25,137 nucleotides of DNA from a virus: positions 1-25,137 of IMG/VR virus record IMGVR_UViG_3300035670_001169; one strand, 5' to 3'. Shown here piece after piece: positions 1,068 to 21,566 of this stretch. Positions within the stretch are counted from its first letter, which is position 1. Every line of letters starts with the position of its first letter. Made by a program: the position numbers and the translations under genes. Under the pieces are notes generated by a model. The model worked only from the letters and a program-made list of their open reading frames with translations, was not told the DNA's origin and did no database searches.

Positions 1068-2948
1068 TTATGCCGCCTCTCCCCAGCTCCGTCCAGTCTC
1101 TACATCAACACGTGAGGGGACTTCCAGCCGGACGGCATTGGCCATGATGTCAGCGGCTTCGCGGGCGTCTTCTACTTTGTCCACGGACACGGCCAATTCG
1201 TCATGGACCTGGAGCAGCATCCGGAACCCTGCTTTGTGGAGCGCGACCATGGCGGCTTTGGTCTGATCGGCTGCCGATCCCTGGATCAGGCGGTTGAGGC
1301 CTTTGTAGGTGCCGGCACGTTTGATCCGTCGGCCGTATTCCATGATGGCCTGCTCGTAGGGAAGCGCCTTGTTCACGCCCCATTCCACAGGCTCCCAAAG
1401 CGGGAAGCGGCACTTGCGGCCCAAAAGTGTACGGATCGCGCCGCCTGAGGCCGGGTGCTCGATCCGTTTCATCACGGCGTCGATGGTGCCACGAAGGAAA
1501 GGGACTTTGGAATGGAAAGTTGTTATCAAACTGCTGGCCTCATCCAGAGGCAGATCCAACTGGTTCGCAAGCTTTTGCTTACCCATTCCATACATCATGC
1601 CCAAGGAGCAGGTCTTGGCCACTTTCCTCGGCACTCCCGCCATGTCCGCTACCATCTGATGGAAGTCCGTGTTCGGATCATTCCGATAGGCCTCTGCCAT
1701 CTTCTCTGCCCCAGGCAGATCGAGCAGTGTGGCGTAGTGAATCAAGATCCGTGGTTCTTGAGCCGAGAAGTCATTCGCCGCCCAGAGCTGACCTTCCTCC
1801 GGCAGAAACAGCCCTCTGACCATGGGCCCGATGATCTCGTGCCGAGCGGGAACCTGCTGGAGGTTTGGATTCGCGGCAGAGAGCCGTCCTGTCACCGTGC
1901 CCCCGTCATCGGAACGCAGTTGATTGAAATGGGTGTGAATGCGTCCAACTGCGGCGCTATGCCGCATGTACGGATCGAGAAACGTGCCATGGGTCTTGTT
2001 CACCTCCCGGGCCTCAATGATCATCTTGGCCAGCGGATGGTCGTGAGAGTCGAGGAAGGACTTCGTGAAGCTCGGCGCACCGTTCGTGGTCCGTGGATAC
2101 TGAACCCCGAGCCGGTCAAAGGCGGCCGCAATACTGGCAGCAGCCCAGATATCCACGGTCCCCCCTGCTTGGCTCTTGATCGTGCCAAGCAGCTTCTTCT
2201 CTTGCTTTTTCAGATCATCCAGCAGTTGCTCACACTTCTGCCTATCAAAACGTATGCCTCGATAGGTTAAATCTACCAAAACAGGCAGCAGCTCGGTTTC
2301 GAGGTTGAAGATGTGTTCGATGTCCTCGGACTTGATCAAGGCTTTGAAGTGGTGCCAGAGCTTGAGCGTGAGCGAAGCGTCTTGTTCGGCGTACTCGCCG
2401 ACATGCATGGCGGGCAGTCGCCAGAGCTCTTTTTTAGCGTGGACACCAAAGTCCTGTGCGGCCTCTTTCAGTCCCTGCTCAGACTTGACTTCCTTTAGGT
2501 AATCGAAGCCCAGACTGTTGAGGGCGTAGCTGTATCGGTTTTCATCCAGGAGCGGTGCTGCGATCATCGTATCGATGATGCGGCCGTTGACCGTGAAGCC
2601 TGAGGCGCGGAGCCAGCCCAAGTCATAGGCGGCGTTGTGCATGATCTTGTCTGCTGGAGTGGCCAGCACGTTCTTGATCCACAGCTCTACGATACGGCGA
2701 TCAAGATTGCCGCCGCCAGCATGGCCAACAGGAAAATAACCTGCCCAACCATCCACTGCCACCGCATATCCAACAATGTACCCATCACGTCGCGGCCAAC
2801 CTGGACCCATCGACTCCATGTTTGGATCACACGTTTCCAGGTCAATTGCAATCTCCTTGGCCTCTGTAAGATTTGGAAATGTTTGTGGTGGGACCCATTC
2901 CGACTGGCGTGGAAAGAGGCCCATGGTCCGTGTGTCTCGGTTCTTCAC
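1068..2948 (-). CDS. polA: Family A DNA polymerase with 3'-5' exonuclease domain
   Basis: Replicative phage DNA polymerase of 626 aa. The N-terminal DEDD exonuclease shows motif I AIDLET (Asp36, Glu38), motif II HNAAYDLGWL (Asp109) and motif III YAEQD (Tyr186, Asp190), so proofreading should be intact. The polymerase domain shows motif A NDFSAQEPR (Asp393), motif B RKVAKTCSLGMMYGMG (Arg441, Lys445, Tyr453) and motif C VHDE (581-584). The residue equivalent to E. coli Phe762 is Leu449. There is no 5' nuclease domain, as usual for phage enzymes. The start is GTG at 2946-2948, supported by an AGAAGG Shine-Dalgarno and a 4-nt GTGA overlap with the helicase stop; an ATG eight codons later is the alternative. 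It is the last gene of the replication operon. Confidence 0.95.
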   Translation of the reverse strand: MKNRDTRTMGLFPRQSEWVPPQTFPNLTEAKEIAIDLETCDPNMESMGPGWPRRDGYIVGYAVAVDGWAGYFPVGHAGGGNLDRRIVELWIKNVLATPADKIMHNAAYDLGWLRASGFTVNGRIIDTMIAAPLLDENRYSYALNSLGFDYLKEVKSEQGLKEAAQDFGVHAKKELWRLPAMHVGEYAEQDASLTLKLWHHFKALIKSEDIEHIFNLETELLPVLVDLTYRGIRFDRQKCEQLLDDLKKQEKKLLGTIKSQAGGTVDIWAAASIAAAFDRLGVQYPRTTNGAPSFTKSFLDSHDHPLAKMIIEAREVNKTHGTFLDPYMRHSAAVGRIHTHFNQLRSDDGGTVTGRLSAANPNLQQVPARHEIIGPMVRGLFLPEEGQLWAANDFSAQEPRILIHYATLLDLPGAEKMAEAYRNDPNTDFHQMVADMAGVPRKVAKTCSLGMMYGMGKQKLANQLDLPLDEASSLITTFHSKVPFLRGTIDAVMKRIEHPASGGAIRTLLGRKCRFPLWEPVEWGVNKALPYEQAIMEYGRRIKRAGTYKGLNRLIQGSAADQTKAAMVALHKAGFRMLLQVHDELAVSVDKVEDAREAADIMANAVRLEVPSRVDVETGRSWGEAA

Positions 2949-4477
2949 AATCGAAACGCCTTCTGTTGGTTCTTAGGCAGTACAAGATGGAGCGCTTGCT
3001 TGGCCCGGGTGATGCCGACGTAGAGCAGCCGGTTGATGTCATCTGAATTGCGGTCGTAGTCCCTGGCGAAGTTGGTCGTGAGGTCAAGCATCAAGAGCAC
3101 GTTATCTGCCTCACCGCCCTTGGCCCCGTGGATTGTGGAGAGCTTGATTTGGGGCTTGCCCGTGAGCCGTGTGCCACGGCGCAATAGCGCGATGATGTAT
3201 CTACGCTGTGTCTCAGAGATCTTGGTCAACGCCTCGTGCCAGATTTCTGTAGAAAGAAGTCCGTGCCTTTCTTTCAGGAGACTCATGTCGTACAGGGCCT
3301 GTGGGTCAGCGCCTTTGAGTCCCTTGAAGCCGTGCCTGATTGCTTTACTGTCCAGGTATTTGTAGATTGTCAGGACGGTCTTGAAGTCCACTTCCTGACC
3401 CCTCCTCAATCGCTCCCAGCCGATCACCGCGTGAAGCACTGTCTCTGGGATGGACCGTTGCCCGTGGCGCTCGAAGAGTAGGCCCTGGGATCTGAGCCAG
3501 TCGTGCATGTCGGTCAGCATGTAGTTTGCTGCTGCGAGCACGAGCCATTCGCCTTTTGTAACGTCCACATAGCGGAAGTCATTGTGGTAGCGGACCGTGC
3601 CGAGTTCTTCTCGCGACTTCCAGGTCTTGGGCTGCCGGTGTCTGATGCGTTTGACAACAGTATTGGCAAGGGCGTGAACCTTGGCCGGGACGCGGTAGGA
3701 TTGATCGAGGACTTTGACATCTCCGTCAAAGGTCAAGAAGCTTGCGACATCGGCCCCGGCCCAGGTGTAGAGGGCCTGGTCATCGTCGCCTGCCAGAAAG
3801 CAGCGCTGGGCTCGCAACGCAAGTTGCTCGACCAGCCTCCATTGCAGTCGTGAGAGGTCCTGCGCCTCGTCAATGATCAGCGCTTCAAGGCTCGGGAGAC
3901 GATCAGCGTCTTCGACGATCATCTCCAGGAGATCGGTGAAGTCCAGAAGATTGCGGGATCGTTTGTAGTGCCGGTAAGCACGCTCCACGAACTCGAAGTG
4001 GAACCACTCGATGTCCATAGACGAGCGGTTGTAGTGCTCTCGCAGGTCCAGTCCCCTGATCCGTGCAATGTTGATCTCGTTCAGCACCGGGTGATCCGCG
4101 TTCACCATGAAATCGTCTTCACCGCTACTGACCGTGAGATCGATTCGTGCTTCTTGAGCGAACTCCTTGAAGTTCTCTGGACTCATCATGTCCTTGTTGC
4201 CCACGCCCAGACACCGGTAGGCAAGACTGTGTAGTGTCTTGAACCAAGGGAAATCGGTCTCGGGACGAAGATGCGGGAACTTCTCGATCGCACGATCGCG
4301 GGCCTCGGTCGCGGCCTTCTTGGTGAAGGCGAAATAGCCGATCTGTACAGGCAAGACGCCCGACTCCAATTCGTGCTGAACGATGTTAAGAAGGAAGGTC
4401 GTTTTTCCTGATCCTGGTCATGGGGGGCCGAAGACTTTGGTGATCTTCGGCCCCAGCTCCTTTTCAGTGTTGTTCAT
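2945..4477 (-). CDS. UvrD/Rep-like superfamily 1 DNA helicase, interrupted by an in-frame TGA in the Walker A motif
   Basis: With one stop read through, the frame gives 510 codons with a full set of SF1A motifs: FAFTKKAATEA (Ia), TLHSLAY (Ib), IIDEAQDLS (II, about residue 203), AGDDDQALYTWAGA (III), LDQSYRVP (IV), LSTIHGAKGGEADNV (V, about 446) and YVGITRAKQ (VI, about 486). The P-loop reads VFGPP, then TGA (4418-4420), then PGSGKTT. Removing TGACCA would leave GPPGSGKTT, a perfect Walker A. The ATG at 4475-4477 is the natural start because it makes an ATGA overlap with the preceding 81-aa gene. If the stop is real, only codons 1-19 are made normally, and any restart (for example TTG near 4369) gives a protein without the ATP-binding loop. 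Sequencing error, mutation or recoding are all possible. The role would be replication-fork unwinding. Confidence 0.85.
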
Positions 4478-4719
4478 TCTTCCAGCCCGAATTCATCTTG
4501 TGTCCAGACCAACACCGGTGTGCAGGTGCCGACATACGCGCCTTCAATGTTGAACTCGATGTATTCCCGGGCCTCGTCGTGGCTCATGCCGTCGCGCTTC
4601 ATCAGCGTCTCACGGATCTTCTCTGCATCGTACACAAGTACTTCTGCCATGCCGCCGTCACGCCAAATCATGGCCGGTCCGAGGATAGCGTCGTCGTGTC
4701 CTTCGATTTTGAGTGTCAA
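4474..4719 (-). CDS. Small acidic hypothetical protein (81 aa), TTG start
   Basis: The start is TTG at 4717-4719, overlapping the primase stop as TTGA, with an AAAGGGAG Shine-Dalgarno upstream; the first in-frame ATG is only at residue 17. The stop overlaps the helicase ATG as ATGA. The protein begins MTLKIEGHDDAILGPAMIW and contains MSHDEAREYIEFNIEGAYVG, with an acidic C-terminus (TQDEFGLEE). It has no membrane segment. Its position between primase and helicase suggests a replication accessory role, but this is context only. The layout resembles small conserved proteins next to replication genes in other podoviruses; I do not know a function. Confidence 0.75.
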   Translation of the reverse strand: MTLKIEGHDDAILGPAMIWRDGGMAEVLVYDAEKIRETLMKRDGMSHDEAREYIEFNIEGAYVGTCTPVLVWTQDEFGLEE

Positions 4720-9513: not shown

Positions 9514-10199
9514 TCCGACACAGTCAGGAATTTGACTACCCACACATCACCCGCGAGGACGCGCTCACCGGTCGCGTGTACAAGGTGCCGGGGTTCGCGG
9601 GCGTGCCTTCAGTGACCACGATCCTCGACCGGACCAAGGACAAGGCCAAGCTGCAGGAATGGGCGGATCGCGTCGGCCAAGAGGAAGCGGACCGTATCAA
9701 GCGGGAAGCGGCGTATGTGGGCACTCACATGCATGAAACCATTGAGTGTTTCTTGGCCGCTGATCTGTTGACCGTGGGCCAGGACTGGTTAGCCCTGAAG
9801 GGCCATCAGATGGCCTTTGCGCTGATCAACAACTACTTTAAGTACCTGGACCGGGTTTACGGTTCGGAGGTCGCGCTGCATTACGACGCCCGCTACGCCG
9901 GAACGACCGATTTGGTCGCCGAGTACAGGGGAAAACTTGCGATCGTTGACTTCAAGCAGTCCATGAGGCCGAAACGAAAGCAGTACATCACCGACTACTT
10001 CCACCAACTCGCGGCCTATGCCTGTGCGCATGACCGGATGTTCGGCACGAAGATCGACTTCGGGGTGGTGTTGGTCGCTGTCCAAGACGGCAGCGTCCAG
10101 GAGTTCACTACCACTGGACGGGAGTTTGAGGACTTCCGCGCCCAGTGGTGGGAGAGGGTCAGCCGGGCGGAGGAGGCTGTTGCGCCGCCATCCCGCTGA
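9501..10199 (+). CDS. PD-(D/E)XK nuclease, Cas4/RecB-like exonuclease family
   Basis: This 232-aa protein carries the ordered motifs of the RecB/Cas4/MGME1-type nuclease fold: GTHMHETIECFL (Gly74 to Glu79), AGTTDLV (Asp137), LAIVDFKQS (Asp150, Lys152, the D-x-K core) and FHQLAAYACAHDRMF (Gln169, the QxxxY-like motif). The N-terminal PSVTTILDRT segment is also typical of phage members. No Cys cluster is present, so an Fe-S cluster is unlikely. It probably degrades or trims DNA ends during phage replication or recombination, or breaks down host DNA. It is translated with an overlap from the helicase gene. Its last 41 bp overlap, tail to tail, the end of the 1126-aa virion gene. Confidence 0.85.
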   Translation: MAHLIRHSQEFDYPHITREDALTGRVYKVPGFAGVPSVTTILDRTKDKAKLQEWADRVGQEEADRIKREAAYVGTHMHETIECFLAADLLTVGQDWLALKGHQMAFALINNYFKYLDRVYGSEVALHYDARYAGTTDLVAEYRGKLAIVDFKQSMRPKRKQYITDYFHQLAAYACAHDRMFGTKIDFGVVLVAVQDGSVQEFTTTGREFEDFRAQWWERVSRAEEAVAPPSR

Positions 10200-13100
10200 T
10201 GGTGTCAAACGGGAAGAGCGACTGCAGCATGGCGCGGCTTTGTGAGGGTGCGCCCCCTTGTGGAGCACCTCCGCCTTGCGGCCCCTGGGCCTGAGGTCCT
10301 TGGCCCATGCCGGGAAGTCCACGGGTCATGGGTGCAGGCGGCAGTTGCCGGAAAAGCTGTTGCGCTGAAGACTGCGGTGCAGGCGGGAACAGGGACTCTT
10401 CTTCCGGCTCCGGGCCGAGGGCCGTTAGACCTGAGGTAATGAGGTAGCTGCGGAACTTTTTGGCCAGCTCCAGCGACTCACGTTGCGTGCGGCCACGTTT
10501 GAGCATGTCCGCCAGCATCTGCGGGTTTTGAGAGGCTACTTCAATGATGCGACGCATCTCCAACAACGGAGTTTCATCGAGGACTTGGCGCACGTACTTT
10601 GACCCGGATGAGGCCATGAGCAGTGAATTTGGGTCGATTGCTTTTCCGATTCGCGTTCCAATGAACCGCAAAAACAAGTCCTCTGCTGCGGACGCCCCGG
10701 TCAGGAACTTTTCGAGAGGCACATTGGCCTCGATGCCTTGTTCAATGCGAATCATCGGGTCAAGAATGCGCTTCAGGCCCTTGAGCTCTGTAAGCGTCAG
10801 GAGCCCTTGACTGCGCATGATATTGACGATGGAAGGCTGCCCCCGGGAGACGGGCTCAAACAACAGCTTTTGGTACTCGGTTGGGCTGAAGTTCTTGTCT
10901 CCACCCGCTGTTTTATACAGATACTCATAGACAAGGGACTTCATACCGTCCATCGCCTCTTGGCCGTCTGCCTTAGCCAGCCTGACCAGGTGCGCCATAT
11001 CACGCGTTGGGTGTTTGCTTTTCATGGCGGTTACGACCGCCTCCACCGGGTTTTCTCCCGATGCCAGCACCTTTGCGAACGCGGTTTGATTCCGCAGATC
11101 CTTGTTCAGGGCGCTGTTTTGCATGCGCACGAGCTCTAGGGCGTTCTGCGCTTTAGTGGCGTCTTGTAAAACGCCTACGAGGCCCAGGCGATCCAGAAGC
11201 TCGCGGTTCTCGCTGACAAATTGCGTCAGCGCAGCGGGGTTGACCTCCGTGCGCACGGTCCCCGTCACGGGATCGTTGATTTGACGAAGCGTTTTGGCAG
11301 CAGCTCCGAGCAGGATGGAGCGCTGCGCATTGGTCATCGTCTCAAGGGAGTCATCGGACAACTGGACCAAAGGCGCAAGGCCCTTGGTGATTTCGTTATC
11401 CGGACCAAGCCTCGCCAACGCATCTTCATATGTCCGACGTGGGAAACTGACCGCATCAGTGATGTCGTCCATGCGCTGGGTGTCTTGACGCAGACGCGAG
11501 ACAATCTGTTCCGGCGACATCTTCTCCGCCCCACGCGGGTTGACCGACATGATGTCGTTTGCATAGGTACGAGTGAAGGTGTCGTTGAGTGCCTTGGAAA
11601 AGGAGCGAGCCTCGTCTAAGAGCGGGCTGTCTAACTGCCTCAGATCTTCCAGTATTCCGGCCGCTACTTTGCTGTAAATAGCAGCATCACTAAGCTCACC
11701 CTTGGCCCGCGCTGCACGAGCCAAGTCCAAAAATTCGGATCGGTTGTTCAAAAGATCAACCGCATTCATCGGCCTGGTTCTGGGAAGGTAACGATACGGC
11801 ACGACCCCCGATTCAATACCCTCAGCTGAACGCATCCCGTTCTTGTACTGAAGAAAGTTACTCTTGGTAACTCCCATGCTTTGCATGATGTTGCGCAACG
11901 GCGCGGGCAAAAGGTCAAAATTCGCGTCGCTCTTGGTCTTAACCGCATCCAGGAAATTGGCAGCAGCCGTAGAGGGCCTGATGTCCAGTGGGCTGACGAT
12001 ACCGATCCCAGCCCTCAAGTCTGATTCCAGGTCTTCCAGTTCAAAGAAATCCTGATAGCTCTTACCTTGCTTGACACGGGCGTTTGCCTGTTGATCGGTG
12101 AGCCCCTGTGCCTTCCAATCGTCTATTGTTTTTCCAGCATCAACCCGGATGTCCGGGAACCGTTCAACCAGGGCCTTAGTCCGCTCATATGAGTCCCGCG
12201 TCATCTTCTTTTTCTTGAGCGCCGCTGCGAATACCTCATCAGCCGTCGGCGCAGGATTCTCTCGCATCAGGCGAGAAAGTCCTTGGTTCCAGAACTCACG
12301 CTCGACCATGCGGGCGTTGTCCAAAGCAAGGCCTACTTCTGACCGCACGACATCGCCGATCTCTTGACGCGCTGCAACATTGGCGGACGGGATTTTGCTG
12401 ATTTGATCAGCGGCCCGTGCTTCTGCAGCAAATAGCCTGTTGGCAAGCACCTGATTGAAGATGTCGTCCCGCATCTTCGCCGCCGCCTGAACCGCAGCCG
12501 GATCCCCGGTGCTCTCAAGGCGCTTAACCAGAACACGCATTGCCGTAAACGCCTGTTCCGCCTTGGCCAGGGTCTCCGGTTTGTACCGATCCGATCCGAT
12601 TGCCAAACGAGCCTCAAGGCCGGCAAGCGTCTTGTTGCCTGTCTTTTGCGCGGCCGTCATGTCGGGAACACCCGGCAGGTCTGGTGCCTCAAGCGAACGG
12701 ATTAGCGCAGGGATGTCTTCGTCCGCGCCCTCTAGTATGTCAAGAATCTGATTGACGGCCCGATTCATCTGACGTGACCCAATCGCCTGAGCCACGGCTT
12801 GTCGTTGTCCCTGAAAGTCCGTGACCCATGAGACAGGGTTCAACGCCGAGGTCAAGCTTGGACCGACATTGGTGATCGCATTCTGCAAAATCGTCGCAGG
12901 CAACTGAAAAGACAGGCCGCCCACGATCCCGCCCGCAGCTTGGGCAATCGGATCTCCGGGGTTCAAGCCCTCCCCAACACCGGCCCCGATTCCTGAGCCA
13001 AGGCTCATAATGCCTTCGGCGGTCATGTATGCGCCCGGCGACTTACGGGCGGACTCGCCAATCCTTGAAATAAAGTTGGCAACGCGACCTGCGGTCTGTC

Positions 13101-13539
13101 CGGCCTGCGGCAGCCCAAAAGCCACAGGCGCGGTCATCAGGGAGTCGGCAAAGAACTTGGTCCCCACTCGCAAGGGCGAACCCTCCGGCGGCATCGGCGG
13201 AAGCGTCTTCTTGGCCTGCTCTCCCATGAACCAACCGGTCAAGAGGCCTGCCCCGAGACCTATGGCAGCCCCTGGAGGACCACCAAATGTTGCCCCCGCC
13301 TTAAGTCCTAACAGTCCACCAGTAAGCGGCGCGCCAGTATTAGCCACTGCCTCCAATGCACCCGTCAACATCTCCTGGCCAGCACCGGCCATCGTCCCGC
13401 CCGTGGTCGATGAGCCAAGGACCATGCGTTCAAAAGCCTCTGGGTCGAAAGCCGGAGGCTGATCCGGGGTCACTGGCTCTTGAGCCGGGATATCGGCTCC
13501 GGCCATCGGGTCAAACGGGCTGATGTCGTCTGGATTCAT
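10159..13539 (-). CDS. Very large putative internal virion/DNA-ejection protein (1126 aa)
   Basis: The ATG at 13537-13539 is chosen over the ORF's upstream extension because it follows the preceding stop by 10 nt and has AAGGG upstream. Residues about 1-45 are acidic and Pro-rich (MNPDDISPFDPMAGADIPAQ). About 60-130 holds Gly/Ala-rich hydrophobic helices (KAGATFGGPPGAAIGLGAGL), and another Gly-rich segment follows near 200 (LGSGIGAGVGEGL), both able to enter membranes. The long middle is charged and helical. The last 70 residues are Pro/Gln/Gly-rich and end AAQQPPPPG. I see no lytic transglycosylase motif. Size, composition and position at the end of the virion operon fit an ejected inner-core protein like T7 gp15/gp16 in role, not in sequence. 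Function is inference. Confidence 0.75.
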   Translation of the reverse strand: MNPDDISPFDPMAGADIPAQEPVTPDQPPAFDPEAFERMVLGSSTTGGTMAGAGQEMLTGALEAVANTGAPLTGGLLGLKAGATFGGPPGAAIGLGAGLLTGWFMGEQAKKTLPPMPPEGSPLRVGTKFFADSLMTAPVAFGLPQAGQTAGRVANFISRIGESARKSPGAYMTAEGIMSLGSGIGAGVGEGLNPGDPIAQAAGGIVGGLSFQLPATILQNAITNVGPSLTSALNPVSWVTDFQGQRQAVAQAIGSRQMNRAVNQILDILEGADEDIPALIRSLEAPDLPGVPDMTAAQKTGNKTLAGLEARLAIGSDRYKPETLAKAEQAFTAMRVLVKRLESTGDPAAVQAAAKMRDDIFNQVLANRLFAAEARAADQISKIPSANVAARQEIGDVVRSEVGLALDNARMVEREFWNQGLSRLMRENPAPTADEVFAAALKKKKMTRDSYERTKALVERFPDIRVDAGKTIDDWKAQGLTDQQANARVKQGKSYQDFFELEDLESDLRAGIGIVSPLDIRPSTAAANFLDAVKTKSDANFDLLPAPLRNIMQSMGVTKSNFLQYKNGMRSAEGIESGVVPYRYLPRTRPMNAVDLLNNRSEFLDLARAARAKGELSDAAIYSKVAAGILEDLRQLDSPLLDEARSFSKALNDTFTRTYANDIMSVNPRGAEKMSPEQIVSRLRQDTQRMDDITDAVSFPRRTYEDALARLGPDNEITKGLAPLVQLSDDSLETMTNAQRSILLGAAAKTLRQINDPVTGTVRTEVNPAALTQFVSENRELLDRLGLVGVLQDATKAQNALELVRMQNSALNKDLRNQTAFAKVLASGENPVEAVVTAMKSKHPTRDMAHLVRLAKADGQEAMDGMKSLVYEYLYKTAGGDKNFSPTEYQKLLFEPVSRGQPSIVNIMRSQGLLTLTELKGLKRILDPMIRIEQGIEANVPLEKFLTGASAAEDLFLRFIGTRIGKAIDPNSLLMASSGSKYVRQVLDETPLLEMRRIIEVASQNPQMLADMLKRGRTQRESLELAKKFRSYLITSGLTALGPEPEEESLFPPAPQSSAQQLFRQLPPAPMTRGLPGMGQGPQAQGPQGGGAPQGGAPSQSRAMLQSLFPFDTISGMAAQQPPPPG

Positions 13540-13549
13540 CTCTTTACCC

Positions 13550-16162
13550 TTATTTCGTCTTCTGCCGCAGTACAGGGCCTCGTCGACCATTGAACACGAA
13601 CCACGAGCCTGCTGGCAACGAATTAAATGTCGATTGTCCGTTTACCGTCGCGTCAATTCTAGGCAGATCGGCAGTGCCGAGCAGAGATCGAATCTGACGT
13701 GCTTCGTTGTAGTCTCGAGCATGTTTTTGCAACTCTGAACGCGGCAGCGTCGCGTCTTCATAGCTGCGACGGGCACGGTTCTCAACGGACTGAAGAAGCG
13801 CATCCAAGCCCAACAGGCGATTGCGATACGACTCAGGGTTATCAATCAACTGCGGCAGTAGCGAGAGGTCGCTCCTGACCTGTTGTCGTTCGCTTTCTGT
13901 GAAGCGATCGCCAACCGCCAATGAGCGCGTGAGCTGGTTGACGCCTGCACGCAGGAAAGATGTGGCCTGCTGCTCGCCTGGCGCAAGATCCCCGAGTAAC
14001 GGAAACTTGGCAACGAACGACGCTGTGACCGGAACAATGCCAGTGCCTTTGCCGGCGACGTTGAAGAACGTAAACGGCCGCTCTTCTGGCGTGAGCGCAA
14101 TTGGGCGCGTATCCAAAGGCGGACGCGGCGGCCCGGGGGGAGCGGCAGGAGCCCCTGCGGGCGCAGCCGGTGGTGACGGAGCAACCCCCATTGGTGCGAC
14201 AGTACCCGGTGTGACAGGAGTTCCCGCCGCAGGCGAAGCGCCGCGTTGCTGCGGCGGGATCAGATCCGTCTGGCCGCGCGCCTGCAAGGCGCTCACCATA
14301 TACTGAGGTAGCGTCGGATACTGCTCATACGAGTTGCCCAGCGCATCAGTGCCCGTCCTGCGATTCGCCGTGATGTAGTTCGACACAGCCGTCTCAAAGA
14401 CACGGTCCTGATCCGGACCCAATGTATTTGACCCGTAACCAGGGGCCAGGGACGTGAAGATGTTCAGGGTCGCGCCGGTGATCCCCCGCCCAAACCCAGG
14501 AGTCATCATCGCCTGTGTGCGTTCGCTCTGAATACGAAGACTCGTGGTGGTCCTATCCAGCGTGTTCAACCGACTGGTTAGATTGTTTTCATCTGCAATC
14601 TTCTGCTTCAAGTCCCGTTCCGCAGATTCCAACTCTGCCCGGGCCGCGATCCGTCGCTCTTCCAACTCTTTACGCCCTTCAATGGTCAGAGTGAGCTGCG
14701 CCATCTGCGCATCCAGACGCTGCACTTGTGCCTCAGCCGCTTGTTTCAAACGCTCGGCCTGCATCCGCTCTTGCGCGCCAATCCGCGCATCTGACAATGC
14801 CGTCCTGAAATTGCGATCAGCCTCCGCCAATTGCGCTCTGGCCGTAGCCTGCTGTTGTGCAATGTCCTCTTTCGACCGTGCAGACAGTTGAGCCTGCTCC
14901 AGCTGACCCGCGAGCCGTGTTTCAAGATCCCTGGCCCGTGCAGCACGGTTCTCCGCGCCTTCGCGTTCCTTAGAGAGCAGCGCCAATGAGTTGCGAAGAT
15001 TGCGCCCTTCCTCTTGGGCCGTGGACAGTTTTTCTTGAAGAGTCAGGCCTTCTCTGGCCAATCGCTCCCGCCTCTCATCCGCTGTTTCCCTAACCGCCTG
15101 CCCACTCAACTGACCGATAAGCTTTTCACGGCTCGACTCGATCTGTTGATTCATCCGCTTGATGTTTTCGACCTCTTTCTCGGCCGCGCTAAGGGCAGAA
15201 GTCTTGATGGCGCGTTCGCCTTTTTCAATCTCCGCGATTCGCGCACCGATCGTAGCCGGCAGTCCTTGGAAGGCTCCGGCCAGACGAGAAAGCGCACCAC
15301 CGGTCATCGGGCGGCCGCGTTCGTCCAAGTTGGCCGCGTACCCAAAGGCACGCTGCGCGATATCGAACAGCATTTGCGCCTGAGACGTGTCCCGCGTGTC
15401 ACCCAACAGTTCCCGATACATGGGGAGCCGTTGTTCATAAAGTGTCTTCAGCTCCGGGACTGGCGCAGGCCTTGCCGCCAAAGTACTGCCAATGCGCTGG
15501 CGCAATGCAGCAAGGACTTCAGGGTCATAAAATCGGCCCTGAGCGGATTGACTGGACGGCATTTCATCGTCTGCAGGGGTCACACCGTCCTCATCTGACC
15601 CCGCTTGAAAATGCTGAACGAGCCCGCCTTTGGCCATCTGCAGCGGAGGCGGTCCAGGGGGTCCCGGTGGAGGGCCAGGTGGCAAGCCCATCGCACCCTC
15701 AGGCGGCATCGCACCTAGTCCGCCGCCCATCGGAGGAGCACCCGGCGGCATTCCCGGCGGCATTCCCGGCGGCATTCCCGGCGGCATTCCAGGGGGAGGT
15801 CCAGGGGGCATCGGAGCCTGTGGCCCTTGAGCCATGGGCGCTGATTGAGGAAGCCCACCAAGCCCGCCACCGCCTTGTTGCGCGAGCACAGGCTGCAGCA
15901 TTGCGAGTACAGACTCAGGGGTCTCGGTCGCAGCGGCGTAGCCCACCAGATCGGCGAGTTCGTCACGACGTGCGTCAATCGAGCGCATGTCGCCTCGGAG
16001 GTTGTTCATGAGGATTTCAGGGGAATCTGGACGACGCTCGGGCATCATCACCTCGTCCTCGTCGTCGTCGTCGGATTCATCGTCACCAAGGGCGTCCATG
16101 AACCCCTGCATGATGCCTACGTTCTCAACATCAGGCGCTTCTTCCATCATATTGTCTTTCAT
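13550..16162 (-). CDS. Putative internal virion protein with acidic, collagen-like and coiled-coil regions (870 aa)
   Basis: ATG at 16160-16162 with AAGAGGG upstream. Regions in order: a very acidic patch (DDESDDDDEDE, 27-37); a helix; a Pro/Gly/Met-rich stretch at about 113-173 with PPGM units; QMAKGGLVQHFQAG at 175-188, a motif echoed in the 689-aa protein; a long coiled coil from about 310 to 560 (EVENIKRMNQQIESSREKLI and onwards); a Pro/Ala linker; and a conserved-looking C-terminal helical domain (FLRAGVNQLTRSLAVGDRFT). The last region resembles C-terminal domains of large virion proteins in other uncultured podoviruses. It lies 14 nt after the 1106-aa gene and 10 nt before the 1126-aa gene. 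The role, probably part of the ejection apparatus, is inferred from context. Confidence 0.75.
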   Translation of the reverse strand: MKDNMMEEAPDVENVGIMQGFMDALGDDESDDDDEDEVMMPERRPDSPEILMNNLRGDMRSIDARRDELADLVGYAAATETPESVLAMLQPVLAQQGGGGLGGLPQSAPMAQGPQAPMPPGPPPGMPPGMPPGMPPGMPPGAPPMGGGLGAMPPEGAMGLPPGPPPGPPGPPPLQMAKGGLVQHFQAGSDEDGVTPADDEMPSSQSAQGRFYDPEVLAALRQRIGSTLAARPAPVPELKTLYEQRLPMYRELLGDTRDTSQAQMLFDIAQRAFGYAANLDERGRPMTGGALSRLAGAFQGLPATIGARIAEIEKGERAIKTSALSAAEKEVENIKRMNQQIESSREKLIGQLSGQAVRETADERRERLAREGLTLQEKLSTAQEEGRNLRNSLALLSKEREGAENRAARARDLETRLAGQLEQAQLSARSKEDIAQQQATARAQLAEADRNFRTALSDARIGAQERMQAERLKQAAEAQVQRLDAQMAQLTLTIEGRKELEERRIAARAELESAERDLKQKIADENNLTSRLNTLDRTTTSLRIQSERTQAMMTPGFGRGITGATLNIFTSLAPGYGSNTLGPDQDRVFETAVSNYITANRRTGTDALGNSYEQYPTLPQYMVSALQARGQTDLIPPQQRGASPAAGTPVTPGTVAPMGVAPSPPAAPAGAPAAPPGPPRPPLDTRPIALTPEERPFTFFNVAGKGTGIVPVTASFVAKFPLLGDLAPGEQQATSFLRAGVNQLTRSLAVGDRFTESERQQVRSDLSLLPQLIDNPESYRNRLLGLDALLQSVENRARRSYEDATLPRSELQKHARDYNEARQIRSLLGTADLPRIDATVNGQSTFNSLPAGSWFVFNGRRGPVLRQKTK
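15741..15788. repeat. Four perfect tandem copies of a 12-bp unit inside the 870-aa gene
   Basis: CCCGGCGGCATT is repeated four times without mismatch. On the coding (minus) strand each unit encodes a GMPP block of the collagen-like stretch. Imperfect Pro/Gly-rich flanks continue on both sides. Such a repeat can change length by slippage in 4-residue steps without a frameshift. Confidence 0.9.
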
Positions 16163-16176
16163 GTTGCCCTCTTAAC

Positions 16177-19100
16177 TTAAAACAGCTTCATTCCGGTGGC
16201 CTTCTGGAACCCCGCACCTGCGGCCATGGCCCCGAGACCAACACCCGCGACCTGCTGGAAGGGGCTCGGCGAAGGTTGGCTCGTGATTGCCGTTTGCATC
16301 TGACTAGACGGAGTCTTGCTGTAAACATCCGACATGAATCCGACTTGCTGATACGGCGCGTACATGGTCTGCATGGCCGTGGCCCGTGCTGCATCCAACT
16401 GCTGCTGGTTCAGCGCCTGTTCCGCTTGACCAATCCCGTACAGGAAGCTGATGTCGCCCTGGTTCATCGCTTGCGCAGTCTGGCCCAGCGCAGCTTGCTG
16501 GATACCCAACTGCCCCAGCTGACCGGCCATCTGACCAAGGCCCGCTGCCTGCTGCTGACCAATACCAAACTGTTGTCCTGCCAGCTGCCCAATCCCTTGG
16601 CCAAGATTCTGGTACTGAGCGGCCTGCTGCCCGTACAACTGGCCCATGCCCAATCCCGCCTGCTGACGAGCCTGAGCATTCTGCAACATCAAATTGGCAA
16701 TGTTCTGATTGACTGACGCCTCTTGACCCGCCAGCGCGCCCTGCTGTGAGGCAAGATTGCCATACTGTTGCGCCGCTTGACTGTAGATACCCGCCGCACC
16801 TTGGCCCAACTGAGCCTGGCTCAGGCCCAACTGACCAAGGCCTTGGCCGGCAGCAACCTGCTGTGAGGCAAGATTTCCATAAAGTCCGGCTGCCGCTTGT
16901 CCAAGCTGCGCTTGTTGAGCGGCTTGTTGGCCAGCGATCTGTCCGATATTGGCCAACTGCCCAGCGCCCGCTTGTCCAAGCTGCGCTCCCTGCGCAGCAA
17001 ACTGGCCCAGTTGCGCCCCGCCCTGAAGACCAAGCTGCGCTTGTTGCATGGCAGCCTGCGCTGCCTGTTGGCCCAAGGCTCCCTGAGCCTGCGCTTGTTG
17101 CCCATACATCTGGCCAATGCCCGAATAAAGCTGTGACTGCTGCGCCGCCTGCTGCTGTTGCACTTGTTGCAGTTGCGCCATCTGCATGGCGGTTTGCGCA
17201 TCAAACCCAGCCTGCTGAAATTGCTGTTGCGCAGCCGCCAGTCCGAGCTGGCCCTGTTGCCCCGCAAGTTGGCCCGTGAGCCCTGCTTGTTGAGCCTGGA
17301 TCTGCGCGGCTTGCTGTCCCAGTCCCCCCAGTTGAGCACCTGCTCCAATGGCCCCGGTCCCTGCTGCTTGCGTCATCTGCGCGGCTTGCTGACCCAGTTG
17401 GGCCTGCTGCGCGCCAGCACCAATCTGCCCGATTCCCGCCTGACGGAGCATTTCTGCTGCTTGCTGCCCCATCTGAGCCCCGGTCAATCCGTACTGACCC
17501 TGCAAAGCCTGATTCGCCAAGGCCGCCTGTTGGGCCATTTGTGCATTCTGCTGGCCCGTGGTCATTTGCGCCTGCTGGTTGGCCAGAGCCGCTTGCATCG
17601 CGGCCTGCTGGTTCATGCCAGAAGCTTGCAGACGATTAGCCTCGTTTTGTACACGCGCTTGTTGTTCGGCATTGAGGTTCGCAAGAGAAGTCTGAAGACC
17701 GGCCTGCGTACCAAGTTGCTGGACGCCAAGCTGAGATGCAAGATTTTGCTGACCGACCGTGAGGCCTGCCTGCTGATTAGCCTGTTGAGCCGCGAGCCGT
17801 GCTTGTTCTTCGACGTTAAACTGCTGTTGAGCCTGTTGATAAGCCTGCTGCAGCCCTCGAGCTTGAATGTCGGCTTCCAGTTGACCAAGGTTACGGGCCG
17901 CCTCGGCTTCCATTACCCCTTCACGTGGTCCACCAAACGCACCCGCTCGAACAGCCTGTGCCGATCGTCCTTGACGTGCAATTTCATCTGCGCGACGAGC
18001 CTCCCTCAACTGGATATCAACGACCCCCTGCATATAGGGAGACATGTACTGACCAAGGGCACCCGGGGCCGTGATTGATCCGGTTTGAACCTGTTGCGCA
18101 GGGCCCATTTGAAACGCCTGAAGCCCGGTGGGGGCTGCCGCCTGCGCCGCCGCAATGCCCTGCGTGGCGACTTGTTGCGCGCTAACCCTTTCAGGGGCAG
18201 CCATCTGCGCCGCTTGGACGGTGGGCGCAGCTCCAAGACCCGCTGCGGCCTCGGACGCTCGCTGCGCAGCCAAGAACTGAGTGTCAATGCCTTGTTGGAA
18301 CTCTGGACGAGTAGCAGCCGCCCGGGCCTGTTCGGCTCCTTGGAAGAGCGCTCCAATTCCTTGTTGGATGGCGGGCTGTGCAGCAGCCTGCTGTGCCATG
18401 GCAACAGCATCTTGCCCCTGCTGAAGCGCTGTCCCAAAGCCCGGCTGTGCAGCCGCCTGCTGTGCGGCTGTGGTCGCGCCTGCCGCCACACCGCCCGCAC
18501 CAGCGAGCCGTCCCGTTACTCCCGTGAAATCAGACGGCCCCGCCTGTCCGGCTGCCGTGCGCGCTTCACCTAGCAAATCGGCTTGTTGCAAGAATCCCGG
18601 CTGTTGTGCAGCAAGCGCAGCCTGTTGTGCAGCGCTTTCCGCCTGACCCACACCACGACCCGTGACATACTGCGCCTCCCTGAAATCAGGTTGCGCAGCG
18701 GCTGTTCCGGCCGCCGCTTGCGACAGTAGTTGCTGTGCGCCGCTCAGATCCGCCCCGCCTGACTGCAGCGCTAGCTGCTGCGCTCCGGTCAAACCTGCCA
18801 GCCCCTGCCCGATGGCCGCAGTAGCCGGAGCAAGGTCCGCTTGACTGGACCTTGCCGCCAGATTCTGAGCCGTGGCCAGTGAGCCAATGCCCGTGTTGAT
18901 GTCTTGAAAAGCCGGCGTAAAACGCGCCGTCGTATCAGAGGCCAGCGCACGCTGACCCGCTACGTCCAGGTATCCGGGGACGTACTGCCCGGTGGCAGGA
19001 TCAGTGTACCCAGTCGCCGTCTGGAACTGCCCCAGTCCAGCAGTGATTCCGGCGGTCGCACCACCGGCCTGCTGCATCGCGGCCTGAGCATCCTGGAATT

Positions 19101-19497
19101 GCTGACGTGTGTCCGCGCCACGGAGGATGTCCGCCGCTTCGCCCGTGGTTGCATAGGCTGAACCAAGGGCCGTGTTGGCTGCGCCAATATACGGCATAAA
19201 CGACCCAACACCCGTCGTCTGGGCAGCCTGCATAGCACGCGTTTGTGTCGGAGAAAACCCGGCGACCTGATACGCACCACCTCCTGGCGCATATCCGGTG
19301 AGATTGCCTGCCTCATCGTATTGAGGCGTTTGGCCCCGGCCAAGGAAGTCCTGCAGGGTTTGACCTGCTGGAAGCGGCTCTCCGGTTACGGGATCGAGGT
19401 TTTCGCCAATCCTTTGCGCTTGCTGCAAAAGCTTGGTGCGATAGTCCTCAATGCCCTCAATCTCACGTGTAATGACTTCCTGAGTGCTCGTTGCCAT
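16177..19497 (-). CDS. Giant Ala/Gln/Gly/Leu-repeat virion protein, putative ejection protein (1106 aa)
   Basis: ATG at 19495-19497, overlapping the preceding stop by one base, with GGGAG upstream. The N-terminal 100 residues contain LDPVTGEPLPAGQTLQDFLG. Residues about 483-550 form a conserved-looking core (LREARRADEIARQGRSAQAV, AGAFGGPREGVMEAEAARN), a pattern I recall from large virion proteins of many uncultured podoviruses. From about 560 to 1010 the protein is low-complexity helical repeats of LGQQAAQ and YGNLASQQ type. It has no Cys, Trp or His, and only four Lys (22, 1061, 1099, 1104). Between Arg685 and Glu926 the only charged residue is Asp766. The C-terminus (VGLGAMAAGAGFQKATG) is hydrophobic. 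A flexible protein that leaves the capsid with DNA would fit; this is inference. Confidence 0.75.
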   Translation of the reverse strand: MATSTQEVITREIEGIEDYRTKLLQQAQRIGENLDPVTGEPLPAGQTLQDFLGRGQTPQYDEAGNLTGYAPGGGAYQVAGFSPTQTRAMQAAQTTGVGSFMPYIGAANTALGSAYATTGEAADILRGADTRQQFQDAQAAMQQAGGATAGITAGLGQFQTATGYTDPATGQYVPGYLDVAGQRALASDTTARFTPAFQDINTGIGSLATAQNLAARSSQADLAPATAAIGQGLAGLTGAQQLALQSGGADLSGAQQLLSQAAAGTAAAQPDFREAQYVTGRGVGQAESAAQQAALAAQQPGFLQQADLLGEARTAAGQAGPSDFTGVTGRLAGAGGVAAGATTAAQQAAAQPGFGTALQQGQDAVAMAQQAAAQPAIQQGIGALFQGAEQARAAATRPEFQQGIDTQFLAAQRASEAAAGLGAAPTVQAAQMAAPERVSAQQVATQGIAAAQAAAPTGLQAFQMGPAQQVQTGSITAPGALGQYMSPYMQGVVDIQLREARRADEIARQGRSAQAVRAGAFGGPREGVMEAEAARNLGQLEADIQARGLQQAYQQAQQQFNVEEQARLAAQQANQQAGLTVGQQNLASQLGVQQLGTQAGLQTSLANLNAEQQARVQNEANRLQASGMNQQAAMQAALANQQAQMTTGQQNAQMAQQAALANQALQGQYGLTGAQMGQQAAEMLRQAGIGQIGAGAQQAQLGQQAAQMTQAAGTGAIGAGAQLGGLGQQAAQIQAQQAGLTGQLAGQQGQLGLAAAQQQFQQAGFDAQTAMQMAQLQQVQQQQAAQQSQLYSGIGQMYGQQAQAQGALGQQAAQAAMQQAQLGLQGGAQLGQFAAQGAQLGQAGAGQLANIGQIAGQQAAQQAQLGQAAAGLYGNLASQQVAAGQGLGQLGLSQAQLGQGAAGIYSQAAQQYGNLASQQGALAGQEASVNQNIANLMLQNAQARQQAGLGMGQLYGQQAAQYQNLGQGIGQLAGQQFGIGQQQAAGLGQMAGQLGQLGIQQAALGQTAQAMNQGDISFLYGIGQAEQALNQQQLDAARATAMQTMYAPYQQVGFMSDVYSKTPSSQMQTAITSQPSPSPFQQVAGVGLGAMAAGAGFQKATGMKLF
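16740..16880. repeat. Direct 24-bp repeat pair, 117 bp apart, in the Q/A-rich gene
   Basis: 16740-16763 and 16857-16880 are identical except for one base. Both encode a YGNLASQQ block. The spacing is exactly 39 codons, which shows recent duplication or selection on a 39-residue period in this part of the protein. Confidence 0.8.
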
Positions 19498-21566
19498 TAT
19501 GCTTTACTCCCTACAGGGCCGCCCTCAAGCATTTTCATTAGCTTGTACATTTTGGCCGCGCCCTTGCGTCGGCTGCCACTGCCTGCATTACGCACCGCTT
19601 TAGCCGTAAAGACAAACTCGCCATCCGACAACATCGCCGGAATGGAGTCAGATGTCCCGGTTCCTGGGCCGTTGATCGCGCCATTTTTACGGGGGAACTC
19701 ACGAACATCCGTTGGGCCGCCCTGCGCCCGGTAGATTAAAGGAACCCCATACAGTCCGGCAATGTTATAGGGCTGCGCCACGGCCCCCTGACTTCGAGTA
19801 ATTCCAGGCGCTGGAACAGACGGCGTGTCTTTTTCCGTGTCCGCCAGGAAGCGCGCCAAGGACGGCGTCGGAACAAGCACGTTGGTTTCGCTCGGCACCC
19901 CTACCCGGGATACCGCACCTCCCGGAGTCAAAGGATATTTGATGGGCCGTTTTGCACGCTCCGCCGCACTTGTATCAACTTCACCTTCCTTAAATGCGCC
20001 CAAGGCCGCAGCAGCGGCAGTGCCTGCAGCCGCAATCGGACCGTATTTACGGATAATCCCCGCATCTTCCGGAAGCCCGGCACGGCTGGGGGAGAGGTAT
20101 TTGTCGTACAGGTCTGTAGCACCCTGGACCGTCCGACCAAAAAAGCCTTGATCCGCAAGCCTAGGCGTACTCGCTGCTTCGGACATCGGCATGGTCATGC
20201 TCATTGGGCTCGTGGCTGCAGGCTGTGTCAAAGACTGATAACTTGGCGTGGCGTATGAAGTCTCTGGGACGACAGTAGGTGCCCCTCCGGTAGGTCCGGT
20301 GACGGCTTGTCCAATAGGCCCGGGAGAGACGGCTGGACCCATGTCGCCATAAGGTCCGCCCGGTGCCATGGCAGCTTGTTGCAGCGGAGACATCTGCCCC
20401 GCCTCAGCCATCGGCATGGAAACCATGTCCTGGGCCGTGGGCACTGATTGAATACCACCCGTCCCGGGTACAGGAGCGGCAGGCGACGGCCCAGTAGCCC
20501 CCGCAGCAGGAGCGGCAGGTCCAGGCGGACCCATAAGCGGTGCGCCCTGAACACCCGCAATGCCGCCCGAAACTGCCCCAGCAGCCAGGCCCATCTTAAG
20601 TGCCTCAGAGGGCTTCATGCCCATCAGCAAACCTGCGCCCGTGCCTAAGGCCCCTGTAGTAAGACCCGTGTTAATCGCAGAGCCAGCCGCGCCGGGCATA
20701 AACTCGCCCACAGCCTTCAGCGGACTTCCCAGGCCACCAAAGTCACCGCCACCGCCCACATATCCCAGCGCACTGGAAATCAACGCCTCTTTAACGCTCC
20801 CGCCACCGGCCAACGTGACACTTCCTGCTGCCAATGCGGCGGTGCCCGCTTTTCCTAGAGCCAGTCCGATGGAAGTTGGACCAAGGACCGCTGCAAGCGC
20901 GATCGTCCCAAGAATCCTTCCAACAGGTGAGGACAGGGCCTTTTTAACGGTATTGCCCAGTTTTTTGAAGAATTTCTTGAAGTACTCTGGTAGGCCCGTT
21001 TGAGGATTGATGGTCCCCGCACCGCCTTGAGCCTGCAGCATCCTCGCCTCTTCCGGCGTGATGTGCGCAAGCATCGTGTCACCGTTTCGACCACGCGATG
21101 CAAGGTACTGGGCCATGTCCGCCAGTCCACCCTGCGCCATCTGCATCGTGGGCATCATGCTCGGGCCGGATTGCATAGGGGCCATGGCCCCTTGCACACG
21201 GCCCATTTTCATCTCATTCAGAACCGCGAGCGCTGCGCCAATGAAAGTCGGATCGTATTGGTCGGGCATGTCACCCGGATCCATCAGGTCTTGCGCAACA
21301 AGGCTTTGGACTACACGGTCGTAATCATTCGGATTACGCGTCAAGTACTCAAAAACATCGATCATTTGATCGATTTCTCGAGGCGTAAAGTCGACGTCGG
21401 CAAGCTCATCGCGCAACATCGTCTTCATCGCTTCCAAAGCCTGGGGATCTGACATCCCCAAAGCTGTCGTCGCCGCATCGTAAGATTCGGCGCTAGAGAC
21501 AGTCATCGGCTCTTGCTGCGACATGGGAGCTTCCATGGGAAGCGCCATGATTCCTTCGTTTTCCAT
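19497..21566 (-). CDS. Putative internal virion protein with the conserved LAHITPEEA and GPGTGTSDSIPAMLSDGE motifs (689 aa)
   Basis: ATG at 21564-21566 behind AGGAAAGGA. After an acidic helical N-terminal part (FTPREIDQMIDVFEYLTRNP), the segment QMAQGGLADMAQYLASRG leads into GDTMLAHITPEEARMLQAQG and GTINPQTGLPEYFKK (about 162-198). Hydrophobic Ala/Gly-rich helices follow at about 217-290, then a Pro/Gly/Met-rich linker. The C-terminal 73 residues contain NGPGTGTSDSIPAMLSDGEF (632-651) and a basic helix. I recall both motif blocks from large virion and tape-measure-like proteins of many marine phages, but no activity is established to my knowledge. It is the first of four large genes probably expressed from the promoter at 21641-21670. 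Role in DNA ejection or the inner core is inference. Confidence 0.75.
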   Translation of the reverse strand: MENEGIMALPMEAPMSQQEPMTVSSAESYDAATTALGMSDPQALEAMKTMLRDELADVDFTPREIDQMIDVFEYLTRNPNDYDRVVQSLVAQDLMDPGDMPDQYDPTFIGAALAVLNEMKMGRVQGAMAPMQSGPSMMPTMQMAQGGLADMAQYLASRGRNGDTMLAHITPEEARMLQAQGGAGTINPQTGLPEYFKKFFKKLGNTVKKALSSPVGRILGTIALAAVLGPTSIGLALGKAGTAALAAGSVTLAGGGSVKEALISSALGYVGGGGDFGGLGSPLKAVGEFMPGAAGSAINTGLTTGALGTGAGLLMGMKPSEALKMGLAAGAVSGGIAGVQGAPLMGPPGPAAPAAGATGPSPAAPVPGTGGIQSVPTAQDMVSMPMAEAGQMSPLQQAAMAPGGPYGDMGPAVSPGPIGQAVTGPTGGAPTVVPETSYATPSYQSLTQPAATSPMSMTMPMSEAASTPRLADQGFFGRTVQGATDLYDKYLSPSRAGLPEDAGIIRKYGPIAAAGTAAAAALGAFKEGEVDTSAAERAKRPIKYPLTPGGAVSRVGVPSETNVLVPTPSLARFLADTEKDTPSVPAPGITRSQGAVAQPYNIAGLYGVPLIYRAQGGPTDVREFPRKNGAINGPGTGTSDSIPAMLSDGEFVFTAKAVRNAGSGSRRKGAAKMYKLMKMLEGGPVGSKA

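Follow-up and report, generated by a model that had tools for sequence, protein, structure and literature searches.

We found that the gene for a UvrD-like SF1 helicase, on the minus strand of the window (the whole stretch of viral DNA that was analyzed, 25,137 nucleotides), has its Walker A loop broken by GGC-CCC-CCA-TGA-CCA-GGA. With a probability of roughly 85%, we read this interruption as a programmed translational bypass (stop-hop) element belonging to a mobile homing-endonuclease cassette. More than 90 viral contigs share its layout, which runs from a hairpin through a Pro codon (CCN), a stop (any of the three), and CYN to the remaining P-loop, with the 3' arm of the hairpin stopping 0 to 1 nt ahead of the takeoff codon. 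When these sequences were read with a 6-nt skip, a canonical P-loop was given back in every case.

In the window, the frame that starts at the ATG at position 4477 on the minus strand reads MNNTEKELGPKITKVFGPP, then TGA, and then PGSGKTTFLL. Aligned with 70 uninterrupted homologues, which have GPPGSGKTT or close variants of it, the gene has two surplus codons and an unchanged frame. This confirmed, at the coordinates originally given, the in-frame TGA that the first-pass annotation had described as a 6-bp addition to the Walker A loop. The same annotation had called all other SF1 motifs intact. Apart from the interruption the helicase is indeed intact, with a reading frame that stays open past the stop to position 2945 and matches to the UvrD helicase N- and C-terminal domains (PF00580 and PF13361). 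The start at 4477 gives the protein an N-terminal extension, MNNTEKELGPK, that is missing from the uninterrupted relatives. On the 5' side of the stop, a 12-bp hairpin (4454-4424, minus strand) abuts the CCA that we propose as the takeoff codon. Because the upstream gene encodes a PHROG 13182 protein and no homing endonuclease, the window copy of the element is endonuclease free. The features are as follows.

2945..4477, minus strand: UvrD-like SF1 helicase gene with an interrupted Walker A loop (the ATG at 4477 overlaps the TGA of the upstream gene; PF00580, PF13361)
4457..4462, minus strand: Shine-Dalgarno-like AAGGAG just 5' of the hairpin (from the sequence)
4443..4454, minus strand: 5' arm of the hairpin, GGGGCCGAAGAT (stem search)
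4436..4442, minus strand: hairpin loop CACCAAA, 7 nt (stem search)
4424..4435, minus strand: 3' arm of the hairpin, GTCTTCGGCCCC, flush with the takeoff codon (stem search; shuffle z of about -4.0, obtained on L081, a copy of the window stretch)
4421..4423, minus strand: proposed takeoff codon CCA (Pro) (63 distinct elements have CCN here, and N is never C)
4418..4420, minus strand: in-frame stop TGA (TAA, TAG, or TGA in relatives)
4415..4417, minus strand: proposed landing codon CCA, with decoding resuming at GGA 4414 (comparison with relatives)
4474..4719, minus strand: upstream gene, 81 aa, PHROG 13182 (function unknown), not a homing endonuclease

We fetched 80 viral relatives, 75 of which cover the interruption site. 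Seventy of these 75 are uninterrupted, and four have the same two-codon interruption (L004, CCT-TAA-CCG; L052, CCT-TAA-CCA; L020, CCT-TAG-CTT; and L026, CCG-TAG-CTG). The random error that had been considered for the TGA does not square with this alignment. All five interrupted genes, that of the window included, have the N-terminal extension, which the uninterrupted relatives lack. Furthermore, the stretch TGGGGCCGAAGATC-NNN-AAAGTCTTCGGCCCCCC is identical in all five, in genes with nucleotide differences of up to 27%, and it folds as a 12-bp hairpin ending exactly ahead of the takeoff codon. The first-pass annotation had seen the interruption; it had missed the hairpin, the N-terminal extension, the rule linking takeoff and landing codons, the occurrence in unrelated genes, and the association with homing endonucleases.

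We then scanned viral contigs with the pattern GPP-[stop or Trp]-x-GxGKT (TRR), in which the codon after the stop was unconstrained. Of 45 matches, 43 were real helicase genes; a stop was present in all 43 and TGG in none, and CYN followed the stop in all 43 although that codon was free in the search. Relaxed patterns returned 14 and then 39 further elements, in P-loop kinases. Their hosts are small AAA_33 proteins of about 140 aa and AAA_33 proteins with a CPD domain (L159 and others), and a T4-Pnk-type kinase-phosphatase (L182) is a further host. A Gly version, GGT-TGA-GGC, lies in the Walker A loop of the terminase large subunit in 18 contigs (within L213-L236), where the roughly 50 nt ahead of the stop are almost invariant, the next 1.2 kb are 68 to 99% identical, and a folded structure is again flush with the takeoff codon. 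An Ala version, GCC-TAG-GTA, was found in one contig, in a RecD/Dda-like helicase (L211:11966-13051, minus strand) with a hairpin ending at the takeoff codon. Since the pattern searches covered P-loops only, a true preference for P-loops is inseparable from the search design; their strong conservation does make P-loops plausible targets for homing.

Several searches gave no additional members. The GPP pattern had four matches in bacterial and archaeal genomes (84,980 species), none of them a real member, and an SF2-type PTGxGKT pattern with a Pro hop returned only noise. A search for a hairpin, stop, and matched codon in other genes of the collected loci gave no additional class. Protein searches of named phages with the helicase, the kinases, and two endonucleases found relatives; the element was absent from those fetched, and no cultured phage carrying it was found in those searches.

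One element-bearing helicase (L103:2385-5270, minus strand) also has an intein in the motif II region (Pfam Intein_splicing). Phage tRNA genes, some of them called with odd two-base anticodons, are close to the element-bearing kinases of L159, L169, L170, L187, and L189 (AAA_33; L159 also has a tRNA-ligase CPD domain). A 726-aa kinase-phosphatase-RNA ligase resembling the RNA repair enzyme Pnkp (L158:2352-4529), on a 232-kb phage contig, has the stop-hop layout with a weak hairpin.

Next, we examined the codons on either side of the stop. The 63 distinct Pro elements use CCT (29), CCG (26), and CCA (8) for takeoff, and never CCC; their landing codons are CTA (23), CCA (14), CCG (10), CTG (8), CTT (6), and CCT (2), and never CYC. 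Among 51 uninterrupted helicases, 17 have CCC as the second Pro codon, versus none of the 63 takeoffs (p = 2e-7; the p values here and below treat sequences as independent and, with many contigs closely related, overstate that independence). Calculated from the codon use of the same genes, again with sequences taken as independent, the probability of having no takeoff codon that ends in C was about 10^-5.9 for helicases and 10^-2.8 for kinases, and that of having no such landing codon was 10^-4.5 and 10^-4.4, respectively. The tRNA-Pro anticodon UGG reads CCA, CCG, and CCU, and it could also re-pair with CUA, CUG, and CUU via a middle G-U pair. The absence of C-ending takeoff and landing codons fits the re-pairing of one tRNA-Pro(UGG). 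The rule treats the landing codon as a pairing partner, and normal decoding of this codon would hardly account for it. In the Gly version (GGT to GGC), the landing codon matches the takeoff tRNA; in the Ala version (GCC to GTA), pairing needs wobble or is relaxed. One kinase element (L241, about position 1795) has TCA in place of CYN as its landing codon and would need a G-U pair at position 1. The position of the stop directly after takeoff follows from the search design, except in L255 and L257, which were found without a stop in the pattern.

In 59 of the 63 distinct Pro elements, the hairpin has an uninterrupted stem of 8 bp or more that ends 0 to 1 nt from takeoff, with a spacer of zero in 50, and no near-flush stem was found in the uninterrupted helicase and kinase controls. 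The stem arms are unrelated in sequence between genes, with pairs as different as GGGGCCGAAGAT/GTCTTCGGCCCC, CACTCCCC/GGGGAGTG, GATGCCTTTT/AAAAGGCATC, and GGCCCCAGGAT/GTCCTGGGGCC, and most pair positions have several pair types. The mean hairpin z was -4.6 in the elements versus -0.07 in 51 uninterrupted helicases; for kinases, it was -5.5 (eight elements) versus +0.16 (54 uninterrupted kinases). L094, which is unpaired by the strict stem rule, has a CCCAAAA/TTTTGGG stem three nt from takeoff. Among the distinct Pro elements, L158 and L164 have no convincing simple stem and L104 has a weak one, and thus the hairpin may be dispensable in places or may fold otherwise. Structure 3' of the landing codon gave no signal (mean z of -0.06 and -0.26). 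A Shine-Dalgarno-like core is present in 30 of 31 helicase elements versus 7 of 32 kinase elements.

We also determined what lies upstream of the elements. Of 27 helicase elements, 13 had a homing endonuclease gene upstream, as against none of 50 controls (p = 1e-7); for kinase elements, the figures were 17 of 31 and, in the controls, 0 of 53 (p = 1e-9). Such genes thus precede about half of the elements and 0 of 103 uninterrupted relatives. These endonucleases were mostly called by motif, with Pfam confirmation on nine genes, and belong to the Pfam families HNH_3 (helicases), NUMOD3 and TnsA-like (kinases), and NUMOD4 with HNH_3 (terminase); in L214, about 80 nt separate the end of a NUMOD4/HNH gene from the terminase element downstream of it. 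The pair L052/L006 provides an occupied and an empty allele: a 538-nt insertion with the HNH gene and the element lies, in L052, between the primase end and the P-loop, and the flanks are 97.9% and 95.6% identical. Differences between L026 and L028 are essentially confined to the surroundings of the P-loop, and L004 (stop) and L003 (open) have nearly identical helicases. On the helicase tree, which was made by a quick method and has long branches at its root, there are 13 changes between stop and open labels, at least 6 of which are forced by well-supported branches. At the level of sequence comparison, these results show gain and loss of the element among phages that are otherwise nearly identical.

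No endonuclease lies near about half of the elements, and Pro-Pro-stop is a slow-termination context. Both points would suit a stop-hop that serves as a regulatory device (sensing, for example, levels of tRNA-Pro, release factor, or EF-P) with the endonucleases merely hitchhiking. We consider that reading unlikely, as the endonuclease association is strong and is absent from uninterrupted relatives, and an element that comes and goes among near-identical phages is more easily reconciled with mobility than with a fixed regulatory role.

For this putative mobile stop-hop element, we propose the following mechanism. The ribosome would stall with peptidyl-tRNA-Pro on CCN and the stop in the A site. 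Termination is slow when the stop in the A site follows Pro. By analogy with the T4 gene 60 stem-loop, the hairpin would refold behind the ribosome and favor forward movement, its full formation being possible only after the ribosome had advanced. The tRNA would then release, shift 6 nt, and re-pair with CYN, and decoding would restart at GGN to yield an intact GPPGSGKTT Walker A loop. At the DNA level, uninterrupted alleles would be targets of the endonuclease, with cleavage in or close to the P-loop, and repair would copy the element into the cut allele, which would then resist cutting; the host gene would be spared by the element because the ribosome skips it. We infer the ribosomal hop in these genes from their sequences. 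The homing steps that we propose, cleavage of empty P-loop alleles and protection by the element, follow the published view of T4 mobA and gene 60 (PMC3014915, PMC5009743).

Two contigs that differ elsewhere, L255 (about 1540-1560) and L257 (about 1790-1805), contain an out-of-frame version, GGGGGGTG-CCT-TGAG-CTA-GGT-TCG-GGA-AAA. LYLVRGVP-stop closes the upstream frame, and a different frame encodes the P-loop; as the frames read, a 7-nt hop onto CTA reinstates the protein and readthrough cannot. The samples may be related, and a shared artifact behind the two contigs is unlikely. This version bears on stop-codon readthrough, in which a near-cognate tRNA would decode the stop and leave two extra residues in the P-loop. 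A stop followed by C is a leaky context, and C follows the stop in all of the Pro elements except L241 and L255/L257; the frame is also mostly the same upstream and downstream. However, the GxxxxGK[ST] spacing is fixed, and two added residues would disrupt it in each of several unrelated enzymes; readthrough also leaves the CYN landing rule, the missing third-position C, and the flush 5' hairpin all unexplained, whereas the out-of-frame element is not readable through at all. We therefore regard readthrough as very unlikely. The first-pass annotation had allowed for a tolerated or recoded stop, and in pointing to recoding it had the direction right; its assumption of readthrough, and with it the two extra P-loop residues, gave way to evidence favoring a 6-nt hop that would leave none.

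We also asked whether the interrupted genes could be dead or act as off-switches, with termination giving no helicase or only a regulatory leader peptide. An in-frame stop 10 to 40 codons from the start resembles a leader peptide, and the hairpin could regulate initiation. Against this, purifying selection persists 3' of the stop: dN/dS there was 0.07 to 0.21 in seven of eight pairs (the eighth, L155/L163, was compared without alignment and is uninformative), and for the window helicase it was about 0.16 to 0.17 in comparisons with related element-bearing genes. The P-loop sequence 3' of the stop has been conserved through changes that are synonymous, and there is no usable start codon between the stop and GSGKTT. 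Furthermore, 18 contigs carry such an element in the terminase gene; terminase is essential for packaging, and thus at least this protein must be expressed despite the stop. These points make loss of expression highly improbable. A single contig represents this phage, but an error of assembly or base calling, or a chance insertion that occurred recently in one genome, both of which had been suggested for the TGA, is practically discounted by a site that dozens of independent metagenomes and diverged phages have in common, with three different stops and a conserved RNA structure.

Other candidates were considered and rejected. A group I intron is at odds with an insert of 6 nt, and the window has no Rfam match; likewise, no intein domain is present at the window site. 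A reassigned code or a suppressor tRNA does not agree with the use of all three stops across the elements. We found no tRNA genes in the window and no stop anticodon among the tRNAs called in 54 loci, and the earlier opinion that general TGA recoding is unlikely therefore holds. A split protein with internal reinitiation lacks a start codon in front of GSGKTT, and the part ahead of the stop already encodes the first beta strand (KVFGPP, LYLVRGVP). A net +1 or -1 frameshift does not apply where the frame is the same on both sides, as it is everywhere except in L255/L257.

The T4 mobA/bypass cassette is reportedly the subject of Bonocora et al. 2011 (PNAS), which is said to be the basis of the reviews cited on it. 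Programmed translational bypassing has been described in T4 gene 60 and in one yeast mitochondrial group (PMC5009743). In T4 gene 60, a 5' stem-loop folds behind the ribosome and promotes forward directional sliding (PMC11194080), the HNH homing endonuclease gene mobA adjoins the interrupted gene (PMC3014915), and protection from the nuclease has been attributed to the insert (PMC5009743). The elements described here are similar in that standard decoding terminates while an uninterrupted homologue gives a continuous protein, the stop comes directly after takeoff, the landing codon can pair with the takeoff tRNA, a 5' stem-loop lies behind takeoff, and a homing endonuclease gene is adjacent (for about half of the elements). 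They differ in that 6 (or 7) nt would be bypassed rather than 50 noncoding nt, and in having neither 3' structure nor a stop-containing takeoff stem-loop, for which a gap of one stop codon is too short. The upstream peptide is also as short as 9 to 12 codons, with no long KKYK-type nascent-peptide signal; several members have 9 to 14 codons ahead of takeoff, which leaves them without a signal 25 to 30 residues before the P site. Thus, neither a nascent-peptide signal nor a takeoff stem-loop appears to be needed here. Finally, bypass in T4 concerns one gene of one phage, whereas Pro, Gly, and Ala elements occur here in several unrelated P-loop genes.

Other known systems are similar in part. 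In synthetic Escherichia coli stop-hop constructs, matched codons flank the stop and nine nucleotides specify one amino acid (PMC5009743); the elements have the same matched codons but are natural, numerous, and accompanied by a hairpin. The byp elements of Magnusiomyces capitatus mitochondria also consist of many bypassed inserts across many genes, and they are apparently independent of mRNA context (PMC5009743), unlike the phage elements with their nearly universal 5' hairpin. The Hau3 terminase is another phage candidate that may use bypassing (PMC5009743). Phage methylases with out-of-frame HNH insertion elements (the ShiLan domain) are read in frame with no stop, and no bypass has been proposed for them (PMC11855218); there, as here, an HNH endonuclease insertion in a phage gene is neither intron nor intein, but in our loci the endonuclease has its own gene upstream, and what breaks the host gene is a short stop-hop element.

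According to a 2016 review, in-frame stop-hop had been shown with synthetic constructs only and no natural occurrence was known (PMC5009743), which would make the elements a new form of programmed bypassing and, if homing is confirmed, a new kind of homing-associated element. Our literature search, with subscription journals mostly outside it, found no published description of the element or of a natural in-frame stop-hop after 2016. We think it probable that these loci represent a new class of mobile element, in which a homing endonuclease (of one of several families) is combined with a minimal stop-hop (a flush 5' hairpin and XYN-stop-XYN) in the P-loops, the most conserved codons, of essential genes at no cost to them, and that bypass is widespread, has arisen many times, and includes here the first natural in-frame stop-hop. 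If true, bypassing would be more than a T4 curiosity and would rank as a recoding strategy in wide use, and the elements suggest a third route, besides introns and inteins, by which homing elements can reside harmlessly inside essential genes. Dozens of natural, compact (about 45 nt), independently evolved examples with a clear sequence rule make the mechanism (5' hairpin, P-site tRNA, and stalled termination complex) testable with simple reporters. Gene callers will split or drop element-bearing helicases, polynucleotide kinases, and terminases, which look like pseudogenes.

Elsewhere in the window, three very long minus-strand reading frames of 1143, 870, and 1106 aa (10162-13590, 13553-16162, and 16180-19497), which are without a PHROG match, adjoin a tape-measure-like reading frame at 19500-21566.
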